In this document: positions 39,068 to 49,956 of the stretch, in pieces
Layout: every line of letters starts with the position of its first letter
How positions within the stretch are numbered: the stretch's first letter is position 1
NCBI GenBank assembly: GCA_014529675.2
Contig: CP076040.1
Span: 3,057,894 to 3,121,893 of the forward strand
Reading direction: 5' to 3'
Origin: Opitutia bacterium ISCC 52
GTDB taxonomy: Bacteria; Verrucomicrobiota; Verrucomicrobiia; Opitutales; UBA2995
Length of the DNA: 64,000 nt
Program-made: the position numbers and the translations under genes
The notes under the pieces: model-generated
Databases searched by the model: none
What the model was told of the DNA's origin: nothing
The model's input: only the letters and a program-made list of their open reading frames with translations

Positions 39068-39724
39068 CTACTCCATCGAGGCTTCAAGCTCTGGAACTGT
39101 CCACATGCTTCGTGCACCTGTAGCGGCACGGGCTTCGGCAACGACTGAAGCGTCAACCGCAGGATAATCGTTACCCCAAGTTTGGCGAACATAGGTCAGC
39201 ACATTGGCGATGTCTTCGTCAGATAAAACGGCTCCCAGTGGCGCCATGATAGAGTTATATTCAGTACCATTAACCATGATAGGACCTTGCATACCTGCGA
39301 TGACTATACGGGCCAACATATCTGGATCTTTTCCTGTCCAGTCTGATCCAGCCAAAGGTGGAAATGCACCCGGCATTCCTTGACCCGTCACTTGGTGACA
39401 AGCCATGCAATTAGACATATAGATTTTTTCACCTAGCGCAATAGGATCATCCGTAGCCACTTCAACGATTCCTCCACCCTGCTCTTTCAATTCTGCAGCG
39501 ATAGTCTCAAACTCAGCATTTATGGAATCTTTCTCCAGATATTCACTGGAATCAAAACCACCAGAAAATTTGGAGATATAGAGTCCTGCCAGGGCAACAG
39601 AAATGACTATACAAAAGTATCCAATCATCTGGGGAAGCCCCAGTGACTTTTTATCGTTTAGCGAAACCAGATCTGCATCTTCTACAGTTCCGGAGTTATT
39701 AGAAATTGATGGATCGTCACTCAT
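39068..39724 (-). CDS. Membrane-anchored mono-heme cytochrome c
   Basis: A 218-aa class I cytochrome c. One hydrophobic segment at about residues 33-50 anchors it, followed by a periplasmic domain with the single heme motif CMACH and a likely Met ligand in the SIMAPLGAVLSDEDIANVLTYV region. It is the last gene of the long act/cco operon, one base overlapping the CcoO-like gene (TAATG). By position it may stand in for CcoP, but it has only one heme site. It probably carries electrons from alternative complex III to an oxidase. Confidence 0.87.
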   Translation of the reverse strand: MSDDPSISNNSGTVEDADLVSLNDKKSLGLPQMIGYFCIVISVALAGLYISKFSGGFDSSEYLEKDSINAEFETIAAELKEQGGGIVEVATDDPIALGEKIYMSNCMACHQVTGQGMPGAFPPLAGSDWTGKDPDMLARIVIAGMQGPIMVNGTEYNSIMAPLGAVLSDEDIANVLTYVRQTWGNDYPAVDASVVAEARAATGARSMWTVPELEASME

Positions 39725-40356
39725 TACTTTAACCGTTTCGATACAGTTGATTCAGTTAGATCGTAGTCGAGGTTGAGGCTCTGCAAATAAGCAACTAAAG
39801 CCACACCTTTAGCTGTAGGAACCACTTCGGTTCCTTCCGCAGGTGTATCGTTACCTGGCAGATCAAGGGCATTCACCGCAGGAGTACCACTAAATTCTTT
39901 CTCTTGGAAGAGATGGGGATAAGCCGGCATGGTCGTAGCATCTGCATGTAAGCTAGGCTTGTAGAGATGCATGAATAACCAGTCCGCTTCGCGGCGAGCA
40001 CCGACATTGGAAAGATCGGGACCCAAACGACGAGAGCCGATCATTGCATTATCATGCAACGCATAATCAGGAGCTACGGACTGACGTCCTCCCCAATCGC
40101 GATCAAAGTCTCCTCCGTATCCCGGGCGACGGACTTGTTGAGTGTGGCAAGCAGCACAGGCCATTTCCCGATAAACATCAGCTCCAGCTGCGGCCAGACC
40201 TTCAGAACCAATGATGATCTTTCCAGCATCGGCTTCAGCTTGAAGCGATTTTATAGCCTCGTTGTTAACATCGCTGGCGCCAACAACGAGTAGGCACAGC
40301 CAAGAGACGGCCATGGCACAAAAAATAAAGGCGAATAAAGATGCGAAATTTTTCAT
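39724..40356 (-). CDS. ccoO: CcoO-like mono-heme cytochrome c (cbb3 oxidase subunit II homologue)
   Basis: A 210-aa protein with an N-terminal membrane anchor and a heme motif in CAACHTQQVRRPGYGGDFDRDWG, the strong CcoO/FixO signature. The distal ligand region TTMPAYPHLF is also CcoO-like. It overlaps the CcoN homologue by four bases (ATGA) and the next cytochrome by one. The subunit itself looks functional, although its CcoN partner lacks the usual redox ligands. Confidence 0.88.
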   Translation of the reverse strand: MKNFASLFAFIFCAMAVSWLCLLVVGASDVNNEAIKSLQAEADAGKIIIGSEGLAAAGADVYREMACAACHTQQVRRPGYGGDFDRDWGGRQSVAPDYALHDNAMIGSRRLGPDLSNVGARREADWLFMHLYKPSLHADATTMPAYPHLFQEKEFSGTPAVNALDLPGNDTPAEGTEVVPTAKGVALVAYLQSLNLDYDLTESTVSKRLK

Positions 40357-41795
40357 GATTCAACTCCTCCCACCGGTTCGGTTTCGGTTCGGGTCAACTC
40401 TTCGATGCAGCTGTCGCAGTCCGGTTTGAGAATAGAAAACAAATTAAGAATAAAGGCACAATGACCGACCCCCAGGAAGATCCAACCCATAGAACGGGCA
40501 GCCATGTAGTAGGACGTTTTACGGACGACTTCTGAGAATGGAATGGAAGCATCCATCATGGCAGAACCCTGTTTCCAACCACCAATGGCTAATGGAACAA
40601 CAATCAGAAGGATTCCGATAAAGGATATCCAGAAGTGTGATGATATGAGAAAGCGCATCGGCCAGTCTCTCCCCATGAATTGAGGGACAAGATAATAGAC
40701 CAAGCCAAACGCAGTCATGCTGAACACACCATAAATAACCAGGAAGCGGTGAGCATCCAGGAGTATTGTGAATTGTGTCACTTCAGCTATGCCACGCAAG
40801 GATAGTAGCGTGGCCCCAATTCCAGAGATCAATAATGCATAGGAAGCAAATTTTGCGAAAAGCAACACATCGTTGTTTTCACTATTCGCTCCACTCTGCC
40901 AGAGGGTACCCACGAAATTGATACCTGTGATGGCAAAAAAGATAAGCATCAGGATGCTAGCTACGATGCCAGCAGTGATAATCCAGGAAGGGAAAGGTCC
41001 ACCGACAAGGCGAGCAACTCCTGCCCAGCTACCTGCAAATATCAGCGCAAAGAACCCAATATGGGACAGACTGTATGACAGGAGACGTGATCCCGACAGC
41101 TTTGGAATCAGATAGTAGAGGCCCGCAACTGCAATCGCGCCAAACCAGAGCCAGGTCAAATTCCCTGCGAACCAGCTAGCTACCAAAGCTTGACTGACTC
41201 CAGAGCTCGCATCCGAACCGAGCATGATTTTCGCCACGATCTGGATCCAGGGAAACACAAAGAGGGCTGCAATGATGAACCACTGAGAGGCATAAACGTC
41301 CTTGTTCGTGCGGTTCGTAAATAACATAATTCCCCAAATGGAAATGAGGGTGGAGGCCATAGCCATAGGTGCTGCAATGTATGCGGGAAGTTCAAGGAAC
41401 TCAAAGGCTCTTAAGTCACCTATCAAAATCCCAACAACTCCTACGGTCAGAGCGATGTTCCAGAAAGCGCCGGCTATAATAAGTGTTAATCCTGCGCGCA
41501 CTTCTGAACCACTGAGTCGAGCCATCATCCAGATAGCGACACCAAATGCCAGGTTACAGGCAAAACCGTAAACCAATATCGCGGTGTAAGCGGCTTGGAC
41601 AAGACCGGTTGTTAAGAAGGAAAATGAATCGAGAAAAGCTTGGTTATGTGATTTCCATGCAGCCAGGTATCCGAAGATGGTTGCAAAAACCAACCACTTG
41701 GCACTTGAGAGCAAAAAGACCAATACCGGAGCTTTCAGCGACTGATCGATGGCCGAAATTCCCGAAGGATTGAGCGATGTATCCGTATCAGACAT
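40353..41795 (-). CDS. CcoN-family membrane subunit lacking most heme and copper ligands
   Basis: A 480-aa polytopic protein (about 12 hydrophobic segments) of the heme-copper oxidase subunit I family, closest to CcoN by position and motifs such as AGLYYLIPK and VYYLVPQF. By hand alignment to CcoN, the low-spin heme His of TM2 (PLHTNAVIF) is Tyr in AAYTAILVYGF. The CuB His in YGHNAVGF is lost in FAGNLTWLW, and the CuB pair in GPHHLHY is replaced by GVARLVG. In GHVHSG only the first His remains (DAHRFLV). It therefore probably cannot reduce oxygen. The start at 41795 (MSDTDTSLN) is preferred to one 30 codons upstream that overlaps the preceding gene. Confidence 0.8.
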   Translation of the reverse strand: MSDTDTSLNPSGISAIDQSLKAPVLVFLLSSAKWLVFATIFGYLAAWKSHNQAFLDSFSFLTTGLVQAAYTAILVYGFACNLAFGVAIWMMARLSGSEVRAGLTLIIAGAFWNIALTVGVVGILIGDLRAFEFLELPAYIAAPMAMASTLISIWGIMLFTNRTNKDVYASQWFIIAALFVFPWIQIVAKIMLGSDASSGVSQALVASWFAGNLTWLWFGAIAVAGLYYLIPKLSGSRLLSYSLSHIGFFALIFAGSWAGVARLVGGPFPSWIITAGIVASILMLIFFAITGINFVGTLWQSGANSENNDVLLFAKFASYALLISGIGATLLSLRGIAEVTQFTILLDAHRFLVIYGVFSMTAFGLVYYLVPQFMGRDWPMRFLISSHFWISFIGILLIVVPLAIGGWKQGSAMMDASIPFSEVVRKTSYYMAARSMGWIFLGVGHCAFILNLFSILKPDCDSCIEELTRTETEPVGGVES

Positions 41796-41803
41796 GGTGT
41801 AAA

Positions 41804-42097
41804 TTACTGGTTCAGTTCTTCGATTACCAACTCGGTCGCCCGCTCGACAGGGATACGAACCGTACCCTTTTCCTGGTCGACCCAACCGTAAGTGCTAAGT
41901 GTTTCCGCTTCTTGCACACGCAAGTCAGCTGCTGATGGTGGTTGATCACCCGATTGTTGTGCTACCTCAACTTTACCCCCATCGCTTAGTTTACTTACTA
42001 AGAGAACGAGCAAAGCGAATACGACAATGGTAACGAGGCCTACAAAAACTGAAGGCAAGATCGAAGATCCGTTTGATTGGGATGAATTAGCGGCCAT
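41804..42097 (-). CDS. Small membrane protein of the act/cco operon
   Basis: A 97-aa protein with one N-terminal hydrophobic segment (about residues 14-36) and a periplasmic or cytoplasmic tail ending in STYGWVDQEKGTVRIPVERA. This tail motif recurs, in my recollection, in small proteins next to cytochrome oxidase and ACIII genes, but it has no assigned function. It overlaps the actF stop region by 11 bases and precedes the CcoN homologue by 8 bases. Confidence 0.75.
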   Translation of the reverse strand: MAANSSQSNGSSILPSVFVGLVTIVVFALLVLLVSKLSDGGKVEVAQQSGDQPPSAADLRVQEAETLSTYGWVDQEKGTVRIPVERATELVIEELNQ

Positions 42098-43334
42098 GGT
42101 GATGCAAAGATTCTGAGATTCTTGGATCCTTCACTGGGATGACTTGTGTTTTTGCCCAGCTTCTCATGAAAGACCAGGCGCAGAGTCCACCGATTCCGAG
42201 GAACGCAGCGATATCCCAAAGAGAGATGTAGAAGGGATATGAGATAAACATCTCATAGTTTTCCCGCTTGGACGGTAGAATGTTGAAATAGAGATCCAAC
42301 ATGTGGAAACAAAGGATCCACACGGAAATAAAGATCATGCGGCTCGCCTTCACCTTGTTTCCGTAAAACAGCAAGTAGATGAAGGTAAACAGGAAGTGGC
42401 CAAAAATGAGGCCCATGCTGACCCACCACCAGGCTCCCTGCTCACGCATGTTGTACCAGAAGGTTTCTTCGGGAATATTGGCGTTATAGATCAGGAAATA
42501 TTGGGAGAAGCTGATGTAAGCCCAGAATACGGTGAAGGCCAACATAAGGCAGCCAAGGTCGTAGAGGTGGCCCCGTTTGAACAGACCGGTTAGGGGTCCG
42601 TTCTTATAAACCTGATACAAACAAACTAAAGCCGTTACCGCCAGAGCAGCCCGCATACTGGCGGCAAAGAACCAGACGCCAAACATGGTAGAGAACCAGT
42701 GGAATTCGATAGATTTGATCCAGTCAATCGCAGCCATGGACAGGGTCAATGCAGTGAAGATCACTCCAACGGCAGACCACCATACCAGCTTGTTCGTCCA
42801 CTTGACATCGCCGTCCTTGTCCTGAGCAGCACTGTAGCTGCGCATCTTGTGAGAAAGAAAAATCCACCCGCCGAAACAGACAATCACACCAATCAGAAAA
42901 CGAGCATCGTTGAGATACCAACTCTTTTTGGTATAAAGCACATCGTCTTTGACTTTTTCAAAATCAATCCATTTCCAGATCAGACCATTGTCTATGAAAT
43001 AGGTCATGATTAGAAAAACTGCAAAGACTCCCGCTAGTACCGGGAAGATAGAAGTAGCATGCTCAACTTGACGCCGAGGAACCGTTGACCAACCGGCACC
43101 AAATACATGGTGAATCAAGTTCAACAACAACATCCCCAAACCGATGCTCAGGTAGAAGGTGAACATGATAAGCAATCCGTAAGCCGGACGTGCGTTATGG
43201 TCCATAGCACCGGAGACGGCTCCGAAGATGGCGACTAAAAGAAAAATCACACCGCCAATAAGACAGATATTCGACCAGTTCTTTTTACCTAAAGAAGCGG
43301 CTACCGCTCCTGGAGTTGTTACTTCGCTGCTCAT
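42087..43334 (-). CDS. actF: Alternative complex III subunit ActF
   Basis: Polytopic membrane subunit of quinol:cytochrome c oxidoreductase (alternative complex III). I chose the start at 43334 (MSSEVTTPGAVAASLG, 415 aa), which overlaps the actE stop by four bases. A longer open frame to 43427 runs inside actE. About ten hydrophobic segments are visible, including AYISFSQYFLIYNANIPEET, a well-conserved ActF region. Last of the six core act genes, before the small 97-aa gene. Confidence 0.9.
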   Translation of the reverse strand: MSSEVTTPGAVAASLGKKNWSNICLIGGVIFLLVAIFGAVSGAMDHNARPAYGLLIMFTFYLSIGLGMLLLNLIHHVFGAGWSTVPRRQVEHATSIFPVLAGVFAVFLIMTYFIDNGLIWKWIDFEKVKDDVLYTKKSWYLNDARFLIGVIVCFGGWIFLSHKMRSYSAAQDKDGDVKWTNKLVWWSAVGVIFTALTLSMAAIDWIKSIEFHWFSTMFGVWFFAASMRAALAVTALVCLYQVYKNGPLTGLFKRGHLYDLGCLMLAFTVFWAYISFSQYFLIYNANIPEETFWYNMREQGAWWWVSMGLIFGHFLFTFIYLLFYGNKVKASRMIFISVWILCFHMLDLYFNILPSKRENYEMFISYPFYISLWDIAAFLGIGGLCAWSFMRSWAKTQVIPVKDPRISESLHHHGR

Positions 43335-43939
43335 AGTCCCAAATCCTTTCTGTTGGCCTGAGGCACGTCTTCGACGGAAGCATTTTGTGCGCGTTGTAAT
43401 ACACGCATGTAGGCAATGACTGCCCATCGTTCTTCCGTAGACAACTTATCTGCATATCCTCCCATAAGACGGATGCCATTGCTCACAGTGTTAAAAATCT
43501 CACCTTCTGGCATATCGCGCAGACGATCGTCGTGGTAAGTGGGAGTGACAACCATGCCGCGGAACTTAGTCACGCCGTTACCATCTCCGGTTCCTCCGTG
43601 ACAAGGGGTGCAATAAATTTGGTATTTAGCAGCACCTAGTTCTATCAGCTCACTCGTAACAGGCATTGGAAATCCTTTTGCCCAAGCGTCGCCGTCTTTT
43701 CCGAAGTGAAGAAACTCGTCGTCCTTAAGGTTACCCCGAGCGATCGTTCCAGTAACTGGAATGCGATCGGTGCGACCATCCGCAAAGAATGCAGACGTTC
43801 CTTGAGGCTTGTATTTGGATTGGTCATCCATGTCTGGGAATACTTCCAGAGGTGGCTCGGTAAAGGTCGTCCCACGGAATCCAAGAATGGAAACAACGGA
43901 AATAACCGCCAAGGCGTATATGAAGAGAAAATATTTCAT
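43331..43939 (-). CDS. actE: Alternative complex III subunit ActE (mono-heme cytochrome c)
   Basis: A 202-aa membrane-attached cytochrome c with an N-terminal hydrophobic segment and one heme motif, CTPCHGGTGDGNG. The Met ligand is probably in the IRLMGGYADKLSTEERWAVI region. This is the electron exit subunit of ACIII. Two bases separate it from actD and four bases overlap actF. Confidence 0.92.
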   Translation of the reverse strand: MKYFLFIYALAVISVVSILGFRGTTFTEPPLEVFPDMDDQSKYKPQGTSAFFADGRTDRIPVTGTIARGNLKDDEFLHFGKDGDAWAKGFPMPVTSELIELGAAKYQIYCTPCHGGTGDGNGVTKFRGMVVTPTYHDDRLRDMPEGEIFNTVSNGIRLMGGYADKLSTEERWAVIAYMRVLQRAQNASVEDVPQANRKDLGL

Positions 43940-43941
43940 GA

Positions 43942-44478
43942 TCAGTCTTCGAGCTCCTGGATGTTGATTCCGCCAATTTCCTGAAGGAAGGCCTTGGTTT
44001 TATCGGAGTCGTATAATGGATCCGAAGCTTCGATCGTGATACGCAAGATATCATCGGTGGTGCCGGCAAAATTCTTGGCTTTCATCACAGGATGATAGTG
44101 ACGAGGCAGGCCATTCAGAATGAACATTCCAGCAATCGTCGAAAGAGCGGCCAAAAGAATGGTCAGCTCATACATGACCGGGAATGGAAAGACCGGACTG
44201 AAGAAAGGCTTACCTCCAACAATCAATGGGTAGTCAAAGGCATTCATATACCAGGCGATGAACGTTCCGGTGCAAAAACCGATACTTCCGCCGATAAAGG
44301 TAAAGAAGGGAACTTTGGAACGTTTGAGTCCCATGGCATCGTCCAATCCGTGAACGGGAAAGGGAGTGATGCAGTCCCAGGACTTAAATCCTTCGTCGCG
44401 GCACTTTTCCGCTGCCTTCATCAAGGCCAGTGGATTTTCAAAATCGGCTGCAAGGCCGTATGTGGTGTTATCAGACAT
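43942..44478 (-). CDS. actD: Alternative complex III subunit ActD (DUF3341)
   Basis: A 178-aa membrane protein with two hydrophobic segments in the middle. Typical ActD features are YGLAADFENPLALMKAAEKC at the N-terminus and DCITPFPVHGLDDAMGLKRS, followed by the membrane hairpin and a cytoplasmic C-terminus. Fifteen bases after the actC stop. Confidence 0.92.
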   Translation of the reverse strand: MSDNTTYGLAADFENPLALMKAAEKCRDEGFKSWDCITPFPVHGLDDAMGLKRSKVPFFTFIGGSIGFCTGTFIAWYMNAFDYPLIVGGKPFFSPVFPFPVMYELTILLAALSTIAGMFILNGLPRHYHPVMKAKNFAGTTDDILRITIEASDPLYDSDKTKAFLQEIGGINIQELED

Positions 44479-44493
44479 ACTTAATTCCTCCGA

Positions 44494-45933
44494 TTAATGG
44501 TGCCCTCCTTCGTAGTGATGCGGATCCGCTTGTGGTGTCACTGCTTTTACCTCGGCAATAGCAATAAGTGGCAGAAAGCGCAGGAATAGAAGGAACAGCG
44601 TGGAGAACACTCCAAAGGTTCCGAAGAAAGTGAAAATATCGACCCAAGTCGGTGAGTAGTAACCCCAACTGGATGGCAGGAAGTCACGAGCCAAAGAAGT
44701 AACCGTAATAACGAAACGCTCGAACCACATACCTACGTTCACGAAGATCGAAATGATCCAAACGACGTGAGGACGTTCACGGATGGCCTTGAACCAGAAC
44801 AGCTGCGGGCAAATCACGTTACAAGAGAACATGGCAATGTAGGACCAGGCGTAGATTCCGAACGCACGGTTGATAAACGCAAAAATCTCAAACGGATTGG
44901 CTCCATAAGCTGCGATGAAGAACTCCATCGTGTAGGCGTAGCCGACAATGGTTCCAGTCGCTAAGGTGATCTTACACATACAGTCGATGTGGTGCTGGGT
45001 AATCAGATCGTGCAGACCGTAGATCGCGCGAAGCGGCAACATCAAGGTAAGCACCATCCCGAATCCGGAAAAGATAGCACCGGCAACGAAGTAAGGTGGA
45101 AAAATGGTGGTGTGCCATCCGGGAACCAGAGACACGGCGAAGTCGAAGGATACGATCGTATGAACCGAAAGAACCAGCGGCGTAGACAGACCCGCGAGCA
45201 GCAGGTAGGCCATCTCGTAGTTGCTCCAGTTGCGATTCGATCCGCGCCAACCCATAGCAAAAAAGCCATAGGCAAACTTGCGAATCTTGGTCTTCGCACG
45301 ATCTCGAACTGTGGCCAAGTCAGGAAGTAGTCCGACATACCAGAACGCGACAGAAACCGTAGCGTAAGTGGATACCGCAAACACGTCCCAGAGGAGCGGA
45401 CTGCGGAAGTTAGGCCAGATCGCATTGGCGTTTGGAAGTGGGAACAACCACCAGGCAAACCAGACACGACCCACGTGAAACACCGGGAAGATACCCGCAC
45501 AAGCCACCGCGAAAATAGTCATCGCCTCAGCTGCACGGTTTATGGTGGTCCGCCACGGCTGTTTTAATAAACAGAGAATCGCGGAAATCAGGGTACCGGC
45601 GTGACCGATACCAATCCAGAATACGAAGTTTACAATCGCCCAACCCCAGTTGATCGGATTGGCCAGGCCCCAAACACCTACCCCGGTTGATACCAGGTAG
45701 GTCAGACCGATTGCGGTAAAGGATGCTAGGAAAACCGCACAACTAAATGCTACCCACCACCAGGTCGGTGTCTTCTCCTCAACGATGCCACACACTTTGT
45801 TGGTAATCCAACTGAAGCTGCGATCGTTTTCAACGAGCTTGGGTCTTGGTTTGTGCGCGGGCTTTACTTCGGCCAGCACTTCTGGAGAAGCTGCCGCTTT
45901 TCCATCTAGAGAGAATTGATCAGAAAATGTCAT
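44494..45933 (-). CDS. actC: Alternative complex III subunit ActC (NrfD-like)
   Basis: A 479-aa integral membrane subunit of the NrfD/PsrC family with about ten transmembrane segments; it carries the quinol-binding side of ACIII. Recognisable parts are the polar N-terminus, [35 protein letters not shown] and [16 protein letters not shown]. It lies between actB and actD in the standard order. Confidence 0.94.
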
Positions 45934-45952: not shown

Positions 45953-48900
45953 TTAATGACCGTTGTGGCCGCTATCCTCTGTAGCGTGTGCTTCATCGCC
46001 GTGGGAATCTCCATGGCCATCTCCGTGTCCACTCGCCTCATTGTATTCCAAATGACTGAGTGGGTTATCGTAGAAGTCCGGCATGAGCGGATTCGGGTTA
46101 CGCAACTTGGCGAGGTAAGTGGTGCGCGGACGTGTGTTCAAGTAAGCCAACACACCGTAATCGCGGTTGGATTCCTTGAGCTTGGAAACGCGAGATTCAG
46201 GATCGGAAACGTCTCCGAATACAATCGCGTCAGCCGGGCACACTTGCTCGCAAGCGGTTTTGATAGTGCCATCAGGAACTTTGATGTTGTCGGAATCGCG
46301 GGCTTCAACCTTCTGGTCGATCTTCGCTGCCTGGATTCTCTGGAGACAGTAGGTGCACTTCTCCATAACTCCACGCATACGAATGGAAACCTCGGGATTC
46401 TTGCTCATCTTCTTAAGCTCATCCATTCCCTTGGGGCCAAGAGGGCCTTCGTAGTCACGACCCATTTCGCGGTCGTTCCAATCGAAAAAGTTAAACCGGC
46501 GCACTTTGTATGGGCAGTTGTTGGCGCAATAACGCGTTCCTACACAACGATTGTAAGCCATCACGTTCAGACCTTCATCATCGTGAACGGTTGCGTTCAC
46601 TGGACAAACAGACTCACAAGGTGCCGTTTCGCAGTGCTGACAAGTCATCGGTTGCAAAGAAACCTGTGGATCGGTGGGGATCTCATTGGTGTCTTTTCCT
46701 GGACCTGCAGAATAGTAACGATCGAGGCGGATCCAGTGCATCTCACGTCCACGAAGCACTTGTTCGCGACCGACCACTGGAATGTTATTCTCAGACTGAC
46801 ACGCAATCACACAGGCGTTACAACCCGTGCAGGTATTCAAGTCGATGGACATTCCCCATTGGTGGGTGCCAGTGAACTCTGGTGATACGTAAGCCGAGTT
46901 ACCACGGTTGTTATCACCCGATTTGACCAGCTCTTGGAGAGCGACCGTATCGCGGCGATTACCACCGTTTCCATCCAGGCCGAGAATCGCAGGTGAATGC
47001 GACTCCATTCCCATATGGTCCACGAAGTCGGAGTGCTCTTTATAAAAGTCGAGGTTGGCTTCGCGAATAATCGCACGGCCTTCCATGGACCAGTGCTCTT
47101 GCGTATCAGCAAGTTGCTGAACACCACCAACGTTTTTCGCTGAAGCACCGGTAACGGAAGAACATCCAGCCACCGTTCGCAGTGTGTAAGCATTAAAGCC
47201 ACTACCCTCTCCTACGTTTCCGGTCACTGTGCGACCGTAACCTAGAGAAACAACAACCGTGTAGTCTGGCAGACCTGGCTGCACGTGAGCAGGTCCGGTC
47301 AATGTTTTACCGTCGACGGTAACTTCAATGATATGACCTTGCTCTTTTCCACGTTTGTGGGCGTTCGGGTTTTTGCGAACCACCTTCACTAAAGTATTAC
47401 CTGCAATCACGCCAAGCTCTGCGCCCAATTTTGGAGAAACGAGGAACGCATTGTCCCAGGTCAATTTGGTGACAGGGTCCGGACATTCTTGCAGCCATCC
47501 GTTATTATTAAACCGACCGTCGTCGAGACTTGGGTCTTGGAGGAAACGAATTTCGAGGTTGCTAGACGAGGTATTGGCGAGCCCGATTCCTTCTGATGTC
47601 AGCAATTGCTGAGCGGCACCTTGGTTGAAACTTACCGAAGTCGTTTGGCTAGCTGTGCCACTCCAGTATCCATCGTGCAGGAATTTTTCGAATGCTTTTT
47701 GACCTCCGCTCAAAGAACCGATCAAAGCTTCGGATACGATCTGGTAACCATCCTTTGCTGCTCCGTTGATGATGATCTCCAAGATTTCACTTTCAGTAAG
47801 TCCTTGGAAAAGTGGGAGAATCATTGGCTGGATGGCCAAGACAGTGCCGTTATAAGCGATCGCATCTCCCCAGCTTTCGAGGAAGTGAGCCGCGTTGATG
47901 TGGCAATCTGAAATCTCTGACGTCTCGTCAAAGGTGGCTCCGAGGCGAATCACCTCGTCTACCTTAGCTTGAACGTCCGACCAGTTCAGGTCAGCTGGAG
48001 CGTTGTAAACCGGATTTCCACCGAGAACGAAAAGGGTCTTCACAGAGCCTCCGTTGATGGATTCGGCCAGTTCAGAAATGGCGCTCGCTGTATTTTCAGG
48101 AATGCTCACGTAATTCACGGTATTACCTTGAGCCTGTAAAACTTCGTTTAAGGCGATGGTAAGCGCATGAACACTTTGGGACTGGTGTGGTCCTGCAACC
48201 ACGAGCGCTTTTCCGCGATGACTGACAAGATCCTTGGCGCATTCTTCAATCCAATGAGGATCTACGTCCAGGCCTTCACCAGCAGACTTCAAGAATAGAA
48301 TGGCCTGCCCTCCAGTGATGCCAGCTTGTTCTAAAACAGCTGCAGCAACTAACGCAGTAAACGCTGGGATATCACCTGAAGCGATGCGTAAACGGTGATC
48401 AGCCATACCACCCGTGATGGAGTAGTAAGACTCAGCCGCATAGAGGCGGTTCATTTCAGGATGATCGTCGTCCACCTTGCGTGCTTTTGAGAACGCCAGG
48501 GTATCAGCCAGGTGATTCGGGTCGCTGTATAGGAAGTCAGCTTCCAGGGACAGAACTCGTTCCGCCTTAGAATAGTCATAAATGGCGCGAACGCTTTTAC
48601 CTAATACTTGGGCAGCCGCCTTTTCGAAATTGGAAGTGTCGATCGCATCATACTCGGCCCAAACTGCATTGGGGAGTTTGGCTTTGAGCTGCTTCAACTG
48701 AGCTTGGCGAGTCACAGAAGGAGTTCCCTCAGCGAGGAAGGCAAGGCCTTCTCCACCATTTTCAGCATACTGCTTAGAAACAGAAGCCAGATAATCCGCA
48801 CGCTGATCCTCGGTCAGGGTGCGACCGCCTTGGACGGTTTTCTTTGAACGATCGGGATCATAGAGGTCTAGAATAGAAGCTTGAGCATATTGGTTGGTGC

Positions 48901-49306
48901 TACCATTGCTTCCTGGGACCAGGGCATTGCCTTCAAGCTTGGTGGGACGACCTTCATGGGTCTCAGCCACCAAAGCTACCGGATCATTGCGGTGTGGCAT
49001 GGCCGTTGCATAGAACAGTGGCTTACCGTGCACGATCTCCTCGGGCTGCTTGCTGTAAGGCATGACATGCTTCTCCGGACGACGGCAACCCGTCAATCCA
49101 ACGCCTGCAAAGGCAAAAGAAGCTGACATGACTTTCATGAACTGGCGGCGATTTACGCCGTCCAACTCAGAAGCCCCTTCGGGAAATTCCCGGTGCAAAT
49201 AGTCTTTGAAACCTTCGGTCTCGGCCAGTTCGTCGAGGCTTCTCCAGTAGTGAGGTCCCTTAAGATCCGACTCGGAAGGTTCGGGATGTTTTAAGAATTT
49301 ATTCAT
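45953..49306 (-). CDS. actB: Alternative complex III subunit ActB (molybdopterin-like/Fe-S fusion)
   Basis: A 1117-aa periplasm-facing subunit with an N-terminal CISM A-like domain that in known ACIII has no molybdenum, fused to a ferredoxin-like domain. A Tat-type signal (NRRQFMKVMSASFAFAGVGL) lies near residue 55, followed by TGC. Iron-sulfur motifs near the C-terminus are CTGCNACVIAC, CQHCETAPCESVCP, CVGTRYCANNCP, CTYCLQRIQ and CEQVCPADA. The tail is His/Gly/Asp-rich. I prefer the ATG at 49306, which overlaps actA by four bases; one at 49315 is also possible. Confidence 0.94.
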   Translation of the reverse strand: MNKFLKHPEPSESDLKGPHYWRSLDELAETEGFKDYLHREFPEGASELDGVNRRQFMKVMSASFAFAGVGLTGCRRPEKHVMPYSKQPEEIVHGKPLFYATAMPHRNDPVALVAETHEGRPTKLEGNALVPGSNGSTNQYAQASILDLYDPDRSKKTVQGGRTLTEDQRADYLASVSKQYAENGGEGLAFLAEGTPSVTRQAQLKQLKAKLPNAVWAEYDAIDTSNFEKAAAQVLGKSVRAIYDYSKAERVLSLEADFLYSDPNHLADTLAFSKARKVDDDHPEMNRLYAAESYYSITGGMADHRLRIASGDIPAFTALVAAAVLEQAGITGGQAILFLKSAGEGLDVDPHWIEECAKDLVSHRGKALVVAGPHQSQSVHALTIALNEVLQAQGNTVNYVSIPENTASAISELAESINGGSVKTLFVLGGNPVYNAPADLNWSDVQAKVDEVIRLGATFDETSEISDCHINAAHFLESWGDAIAYNGTVLAIQPMILPLFQGLTESEILEIIINGAAKDGYQIVSEALIGSLSGGQKAFEKFLHDGYWSGTASQTTSVSFNQGAAQQLLTSEGIGLANTSSSNLEIRFLQDPSLDDGRFNNNGWLQECPDPVTKLTWDNAFLVSPKLGAELGVIAGNTLVKVVRKNPNAHKRGKEQGHIIEVTVDGKTLTGPAHVQPGLPDYTVVVSLGYGRTVTGNVGEGSGFNAYTLRTVAGCSSVTGASAKNVGGVQQLADTQEHWSMEGRAIIREANLDFYKEHSDFVDHMGMESHSPAILGLDGNGGNRRDTVALQELVKSGDNNRGNSAYVSPEFTGTHQWGMSIDLNTCTGCNACVIACQSENNIPVVGREQVLRGREMHWIRLDRYYSAGPGKDTNEIPTDPQVSLQPMTCQHCETAPCESVCPVNATVHDDEGLNVMAYNRCVGTRYCANNCPYKVRRFNFFDWNDREMGRDYEGPLGPKGMDELKKMSKNPEVSIRMRGVMEKCTYCLQRIQAAKIDQKVEARDSDNIKVPDGTIKTACEQVCPADAIVFGDVSDPESRVSKLKESNRDYGVLAYLNTRPRTTYLAKLRNPNPLMPDFYDNPLSHLEYNEASGHGDGHGDSHGDEAHATEDSGHNGH

Positions 49307-49956
49307 CGGTGACATCCTGAGCAGCTGGTTGGCGGATTGATTTTCCAGTGCTCTTTCATTTCATTTCCAAACTCAAGTTGCGCTTCCTTGCTCTCAGGAC
49401 GCCAATCGAGGTTGGTAATTTGATCGAGAGGGCGAAGTTTTTCTTCTGGATTGCGGTGACATTCCAAGCAGAAGCCCATGCTAAAGGATTTTTCATGGCG
49501 GACTTCATCCATTTCATTCACTTGGCCGTGGCATTCGAAACAACTGATGCCGCGATTCACGTGAACAGAGTGATTGAAATATACATAGTCAGGCACCTTA
49601 TGTACCTGCACCCAGGGAATGGATTCCCCACTCGCAAAACTGTCACGAACCGGCTCTAGCTTCTCACTCAGGACCTGAACCTGGTTGTGGCAGTTCATAC
49701 AGGTGCTGGTGGCCGGAACGTTGGAATGTCCGGATTTCTCCACCTGATTGTGGCAGTAGCGGCAATCCAGGCCCAACTCACCTACGTGGAGTGAGTGTTC
49801 AAAAGGAACAGGCTGAACTGGCTGATAACCTACTCTAGAATACTTGGGAGTAAGATAATAGGTCGCTCCGGCCGTGATGGTCCCGATGACGATCAGTAGT
49901 GCGATGACTACCTGAAGCGGGGCTTTGTTAGCTTCTTTCGGAAAGATTGTAGACAT
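49303..49956 (-). CDS. actA: Alternative complex III subunit ActA (penta-heme cytochrome c)
   Basis: A 217-aa membrane-anchored multiheme cytochrome c. One N-terminal hydrophobic segment precedes five CxxCH motifs: CRYCH, CMNCH, CFECH, CLECH and CSGCH, matching the five hemes of ActA. First core gene of the act operon. Electrons from quinol oxidation are thought to pass through its hemes and the ActB clusters. Confidence 0.95.
   Translation of the reverse strand: MSTIFPKEANKAPLQVVIALLIVIGTITAGATYYLTPKYSRVGYQPVQPVPFEHSLHVGELGLDCRYCHNQVEKSGHSNVPATSTCMNCHNQVQVLSEKLEPVRDSFASGESIPWVQVHKVPDYVYFNHSVHVNRGISCFECHGQVNEMDEVRHEKSFSMGFCLECHRNPEEKLRPLDQITNLDWRPESKEAQLEFGNEMKEHWKINPPTSCSGCHR

Follow-up and report, generated by a model that had tools for sequence, protein, structure and literature searches.

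Apparent repeated loss of metal ligands and of ccoS from a CcoN-like subunit encoded with alternative complex III in Verrucomicrobiota

The alternative complex III (ACIII) operon in the 64,000-nucleotide stretch of Opitutia bacterium ISCC 52 DNA that we analysed (hereafter the window) encodes a CcoN-like protein in which the fold of the catalytic subunit of C-type (cbb3) oxidases is retained and the chemistry is missing. Heme-copper oxidases are the textbook case of conserved catalytic ligands. On balance, we think it likely, taking the parts of the statement jointly, that on at least four to five occasions the catalytic subunit of a heme-copper oxidase has become a cofactor-free scaffold of an ACIII supercomplex, in genomes that have another oxidase and with ccoS lost as well, and that the “cbb3-type oxidase” described next to ACIII in verrucomicrobial methanotrophs is not an oxidase.

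The window belongs to a single-contig genome of 4.8 Mb that is 97.8% complete. In particular, the operon spans positions 49956-39068 on the minus strand and comprises, in order, actABCDEF, the gene for a 97-aa membrane protein, and the ccoN-like, ccoO-like and ccoP-like genes (Table 1). An operon of this type had been named in the original prediction, and the assignment is borne out by the actABCDEF order, by the ActD match (216 bits) and by the NrfD, FixO and cytochrome c matches. The linked ccoO and cytochrome c (ccoP) genes are those that accompany ccoN in cbb3 operons, and both partners, described earlier as intact, have their CXXCH motifs. (The motif is likewise present in all detected partners of the ligand-less loci described below, 51/51 for CcoO and 51/51 for CcoP.) Note that ActF had no match in Pfam, and that the small protein encoded at 41804-42097 had no match in Pfam or NCBIfam. 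The small gene lies between actF and ccoN in most loci, in six-His and ligand-less operons alike, and its product ends in a conserved C-terminal motif, YGWVD..GxVRIPI (in its wider form, YGWVD..G.VRIPI..AMELT).

Table 1. Features of the ACIII operon in the window, in order of transcription.
Feature	Position	Strand	Basis
ActA of ACIII (pentaheme cytochrome c)	49303..49956	-	co-conserved; five CXXCH in homologues
ActB of ACIII, molybdoenzyme-like domain and Fe-S domain	45953..49315	-	Pfam, NCBIfam
ActC of ACIII (NrfD-like)	44494..45933	-	PF03916
ActD of ACIII	43942..44478	-	PF11821, 216 bits
ActE, monoheme cytochrome c of ACIII	43331..43939	-	PF13442, conserved gene order
ActF, ACIII membrane subunit, 415 aa	42087..43334	-	position and co-conservation with other act genes
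Small one-helix membrane protein, 97 aa	41804..42097	-	ORF, conserved gene order
Ligand-less CcoN-like subunit, 480 aa	40353..41795	-	Pfam match, alignment, predicted fold
CcoO/FixO-like membrane cytochrome c	39724..40356	-	PF02433, 72.7 bits; one CXXCH (CAACH), Met in MPAY motif
CcoP-like membrane cytochrome c	39068..39724	-	PF00034, PF13442; one CXXCH (CMACH)

The CcoN-like open reading frame, which the original prediction had located correctly, runs on the minus strand from an ATG at 41795 to a stop at 40353. Pfam COX1 covers the whole length of its product (137.5 bits), and the top NCBIfam matches are C-type oxidase models, all of them far under their cut-offs (the ccoN model TIGR00780 scored 100.7 bits against a cut-off of 583). 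AlphaFold (AF2) returned a confident multi-helix membrane model (pLDDT 90.9), and the top five matches to this model among solved structures were all cbb3 CcoN chains (Z 48-50, rmsd 1.8-2.5), the best of them 3mk7 (Z 50.5, rmsd 1.8 across 443 residues), followed by NO reductases (Z 41-43) and then A-type oxidases (Z about 36). The 12-helix COX1 fold closest to CcoN is therefore present, in agreement with the earlier assignment. (Identity as the NO reductase NorB was rejected, since the His of the FeB site, which is made of three His plus Glu, are missing and the fold matches cbb3 [Z 50] more closely than NOR [Z 43].)

We read the six ligand positions, which lie in TM2, TM6, TM7 (two) and TM10 (two), against the canonical fused CcoNO proteins of order-mates, which have His at all six in the alignment. 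The residues of the window protein at these positions are Y70, G211, A261, R262, H349 and F351; that is, five of the six metal-ligand His are absent, including both heme b ligands and all three CuB ligands, and His349 alone is kept. Moreover, the active-site Tyr of TM7 is replaced by Gly255. We take His349, the first His of the HxH motif, to correspond to a ligand of heme b3 in CcoN; by homology it would occupy the axial ligand position of that heme. These readings agree with the original prediction on the change of the heme-b His of TM2 to Tyr, on the loss of all three CuB His, on the retention of one His of the GHVHSG motif with Phe in place of the other, and on the presence of only five His in the whole protein (positions 50, 245, 349, 387 and 445), and the structural prediction and alignment that it had put forward as a check restored no His at the five positions. 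Its phrase “missing the same six ligands” was one too many, as its own text had one of them kept. We infer from these residues that heme b and CuB are absent from the window CcoN.

A profile built from 22 relatives matched 268 of 373 genomes in the order and, at an E-value of 1e-60, 122 of 388 genomes in a phylum sample, both counts including some canonical fused CcoNO. After deduplication, the set of six His and the Tyr was complete in 99 aligned members and incomplete in 53. (Note that six canonical CcoNO were counted apart from the 99, and that a handful of the 99 do not belong to the ACIII-linked family.) The named relatives of the family come from Opitutales, Puniceicoccaceae and other Verrucomicrobiota, plus one planctomycete, Pan216. 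As judged from the alignment, the window CcoN exemplifies one state within an ACIII-linked family of CcoN proteins; the other members have kept all six His. The order of act genes, ccoN, ccoO and ccoP is common to almost all ligand-less loci, the exceptions being L208, with actE and actF as the only act genes detected upstream, and L211, which had no actD match. Thus, of the act-linked homologues lacking the ligands for which a profile search had been suggested, 53 were found and almost all are act-linked, but their replacements differ: the patterns include YGARHF, QQHHHN, AHSRRW, SESHFV and RQRKLQ, among others. Sampled relatives from the genus and family of the window organism are also ligand-less (YGARHF, YSARHF, YSAKHF, YNARHF and FGARRF).

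Several members of the family are unusual in other respects. The locus of Planctomycetes bacterium Pan216 (L151; CP036279.1) is a six-His ACIII-CcoNOP operon with ccoS outside Verrucomicrobiota. The genome with locus L043 (G030:C93) has, in addition to a ligand-less ACIII-linked ccoN, a further ccoN-ccoO-ccoP set of the six-His type, and the 18.5 kb surrounding this set contain no act genes. A six-His member at L200 (G309:C1:3322000-3341500) lies in a 999-codon frame; the adjoining frame, of 1016 codons, contains coxA, and no act genes lie close by. One or two in-frame stops occur in the homologue matches of G098, G233, G158, G064 and G077 (family f2) and of G143 and G255 (f13), and may reflect gene decay, a split gene or an error in sequencing.

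We examined the history of the ligand-less state on a tree of 89 rows, made by a quick search with the ligand columns removed. Parsimony placed five changes to the ligand-less state, at least four of them on well supported branches; some branches of the tree are long, and the loss count is an estimate. Forcing all 53 ligand-less rows into one clade cost 166 log-likelihood units (AU p 7e-5), and forcing together only the two large ligand-less groups cost 99 (p 0.0016), so that a single origin of ligand loss is rejected by both tests. The window genus falls in a 38-row group that is ligand-less throughout (support 98). The one new redox-dead class of the original prediction is better described as one state of a family in which, by our estimate, the ligands disappeared on no fewer than four to five occasions, with replacements that differ.

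Loss of the ligands goes together with loss of a neighbouring gene. Six-His operons contain an extra small ORF matching FixS/CcoS between the small gene and ccoN, and with a model built from 15 such ORFs we found ccoS in the operon at 88 of 93 six-His loci versus 1 of 53 ligand-less loci. Five six-His loci were scored as lacking it: at L152 the ccoS ORF, though one of the 15 model seeds, is beyond the distance limit used; at L170 the match is elsewhere in a short locus; and the other three, L200, L216 and L046, are not linked to ACIII. The sole ligand-less locus still with ccoS is L070 (FFNYHY). Consistent with these counts, Pfam FixS searched against whole genomes matched 15 of 20 six-His genomes versus 0 of 24 ligand-less ones, and family searches gave no FixS/CcoS match in the window or the window genome. 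The independent pairs all point in one direction; four to five events are too few for a significant sign test. CcoS has been reported as needed for hemes b and b3 and CuB in CcoN, and CcoNOQP without CcoS assembled yet was inactive (PMC8267372), which provides a direct precedent for a metal-free CcoN that holds its partners. (CcoG was uninformative as a marker of active enzyme because its strong matches adjoin separate canonical fused ccoNO genes; the family search gave no CcoG match in the window genome.)

The ligand-less ccoN is under purifying selection. For the window gene and that of its nearest relative (G005), dN/dS was 0.064, compared to 0.014-0.079 for the ACIII neighbours, 0.101 for ccoO and 0.128 for ccoP in the same pair; ccoN in other pairs gave about 0.04-0.22. 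Six-His members share 128 columns with at least 97% conservation; the ligand-less members have lost 45 of these and retained 37 structural ones. Among the lost columns are those of the six ligands, without exception, and of Tyr255 (2% kept) and Arg67 (11% kept). A pseudogene is ruled out by the dN/dS values together with the kept structural columns.

A further heme-copper homologue was present in all 36 ligand-less genomes checked, and was missing from 3 of 24 six-His genomes (G016, G081 and G012, which are 99%, 98% and 80% complete, respectively), where we also found no bd oxidase. Because G016 and G081 are near-complete and have neither another heme-copper oxidase nor a bd oxidase, the six-His ACIII-linked CcoN probably works as an oxidase. 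The search for a separate complete oxidase that had been suggested for the window genome was successful: by family searches it has one other heme-copper oxidase, an aa3 enzyme at C1:241703, away from the ACIII operon, whose CoxA has all ligands and whose adjoining CoxB has a CuA motif. (No bd oxidase was found there by family search.) In eight loci of other families (L207-L213 and L222) the aa3 coxA gene directly follows ccoP.

We reasoned that a subunit that has lost its metal ligands, and yet is strongly selected and has undergone the same loss repeatedly, is probably a structural docking part. We propose descent from an ACIII-cbb3 operon (ActABCDEF, CcoS and CcoNOP) whose CcoN functioned as a C-type oxygen reductase. 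The CcoN of the window lineage then shed its heme and copper ligands, the active-site Tyr, proton-path residues and the neighbouring ccoS, and remained a folded membrane subunit, most likely one that holds CcoO and CcoP against ACIII; menaquinol electrons would leave ACIII by way of ActA/ActE and CcoO/CcoP and reach the separate aa3 oxidase. We have good confidence in the core of this proposal, namely that a cofactor-free CcoN anchors cytochromes c to ACIII with electrons going on to aa3. Gene order and genome content suggest that CcoN may dock to the oxidase, and it may be a physical part of ACIII. Docking is the better of the two roles in the original prediction; the other, electron relay through CcoN, is unlikely since there would be no cofactor to relay through, and only CcoO and CcoP could serve as relays.

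Other explanations can be weighed against the same evidence. That a single heme is still bound, by His349 or by newly acquired ligands, and that the subunit relays electrons or senses oxygen or NO seems to us unlikely: His349 is kept at the heme b3 position in the window genus, and ligand-site residues are replaceable in principle, but the sister genus has Arg at that position and only 28% of ligand-less members retain the His, no replacement residue is conserved between lineages, and Arg67 on the propionate side, the Tyr and ccoS, the insertion factor, have been lost as well. Quite unlikely, in our judgement, is a new catalytic or ion-channel role, such as quinone binding or proton conduction for ACIII. 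Such a role would suit a large membrane bundle under selection in a complex that already employs cofactor-free membrane subunits; however, the S240, S244, Y321 and T322 columns, which we take to be proton-path equivalents, are lost in most ligand-less members.

The faster evolution of ligand-less members and the in-frame stops in a few homologues would fit a relic that is being lost and is retained only through its position inside an essential operon. This we consider very unlikely given the dN/dS values (0.064 for the window pair and about 0.04-0.22 for others), full-length open frames in many genera and the 37 invariant structural columns. As for misalignment, frameshift or contamination, we give an artefact almost no credence: the same state recurs in independent assemblies of the genus and family, the frame is open, and the ligand columns are anchored by six-His relatives about 40% identical, which together with the structural match rule out an alignment error behind the missing His.

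A cofactor-free scaffold, the reading that we prefer, has partial counterparts in known systems. The window protein shares with cbb3 CcoN its fold (Z 50.5), its length and the ccoN-ccoO-ccoP order, but is only about 20% identical to it and is without five of the six ligands, the active-site Tyr and ccoS. In the ACIII-caa3/aa3 supercomplexes of Rhodothermus marinus and Flavobacterium johnsoniae, electrons pass directly from ACIII to an A-type oxidase, as proposed here; unlike the window operon, these supercomplexes have no CcoN-like subunit described in the accessible text of the reports (PMC5928083, PMC8552683). Within ACIII itself, the molybdoenzyme-like domain B1 of ActB is kept without any prosthetic group, according to one of these reports (PMC5928083), and is in that respect like the proposed CcoN, although it differs in protein family and origin. 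We found no earlier description of a ligand-less CcoN in the open literature (subscription papers were outside the scope of this search, and priority is not established).

The window operon belongs to the same operon family as the ACIII-linked C-type oxidase of Opitutaceae and verrucomicrobial methanotrophs. We found pMMO genes in five class-level relatives with complete or near-complete genomes, which we infer to be verrucomicrobial methanotrophs. The ACIII-linked ccoN is ligand-less in G410, G499 and G437 (SESHFV) and in G599 (ADAHQT), the loci being L212, L213 and L222 (SESHFV) and L211 (ADAHQT); for the homologue in G420, the remaining pMMO-bearing genome, the score (49 bits) is as weak as theirs. 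In G410 and G599, which we read in detail, motif and score suggest A-type, B-type and NOR-like identities for the remaining heme-copper homologues, and by these measures no intact C-type oxidase was seen. Genome work and a review place a cbb3-type oxidase beside ACIII in verrucomicrobial methanotrophs (PMC6688271, PMC8498564), C-type genes beside ACIII have been published for Opitutaceae as well as for these methanotrophs (PMC6688271, and PMC8498564, citing Refojo 2010), and the oxygen affinity of cultivated methanotrophs has been linked to the cbb3 enzyme (PMC6688271). The ligand-less CcoN of the pMMO-bearing genomes and the published cbb3 oxidase beside ACIII are a mismatch; unlike what the published name implies, the window member and those of these genomes lack the ligands, and the enzyme published as a “cbb3 oxidase” next to ACIII in verrucomicrobial methanotrophs appears to be ligand-less as well.

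If true, the repeated conversion of a catalytic subunit to a redox-dead part, with loss of its insertion factor, would constitute a natural experiment on the evolution of respiratory supercomplexes. Genes named “cbb3 oxidase” by similarity in Verrucomicrobiota, including those of cultivated methanotrophs, may encode no oxidase, and the existence of cultivated hosts makes the redox-dead reading of CcoN directly testable.
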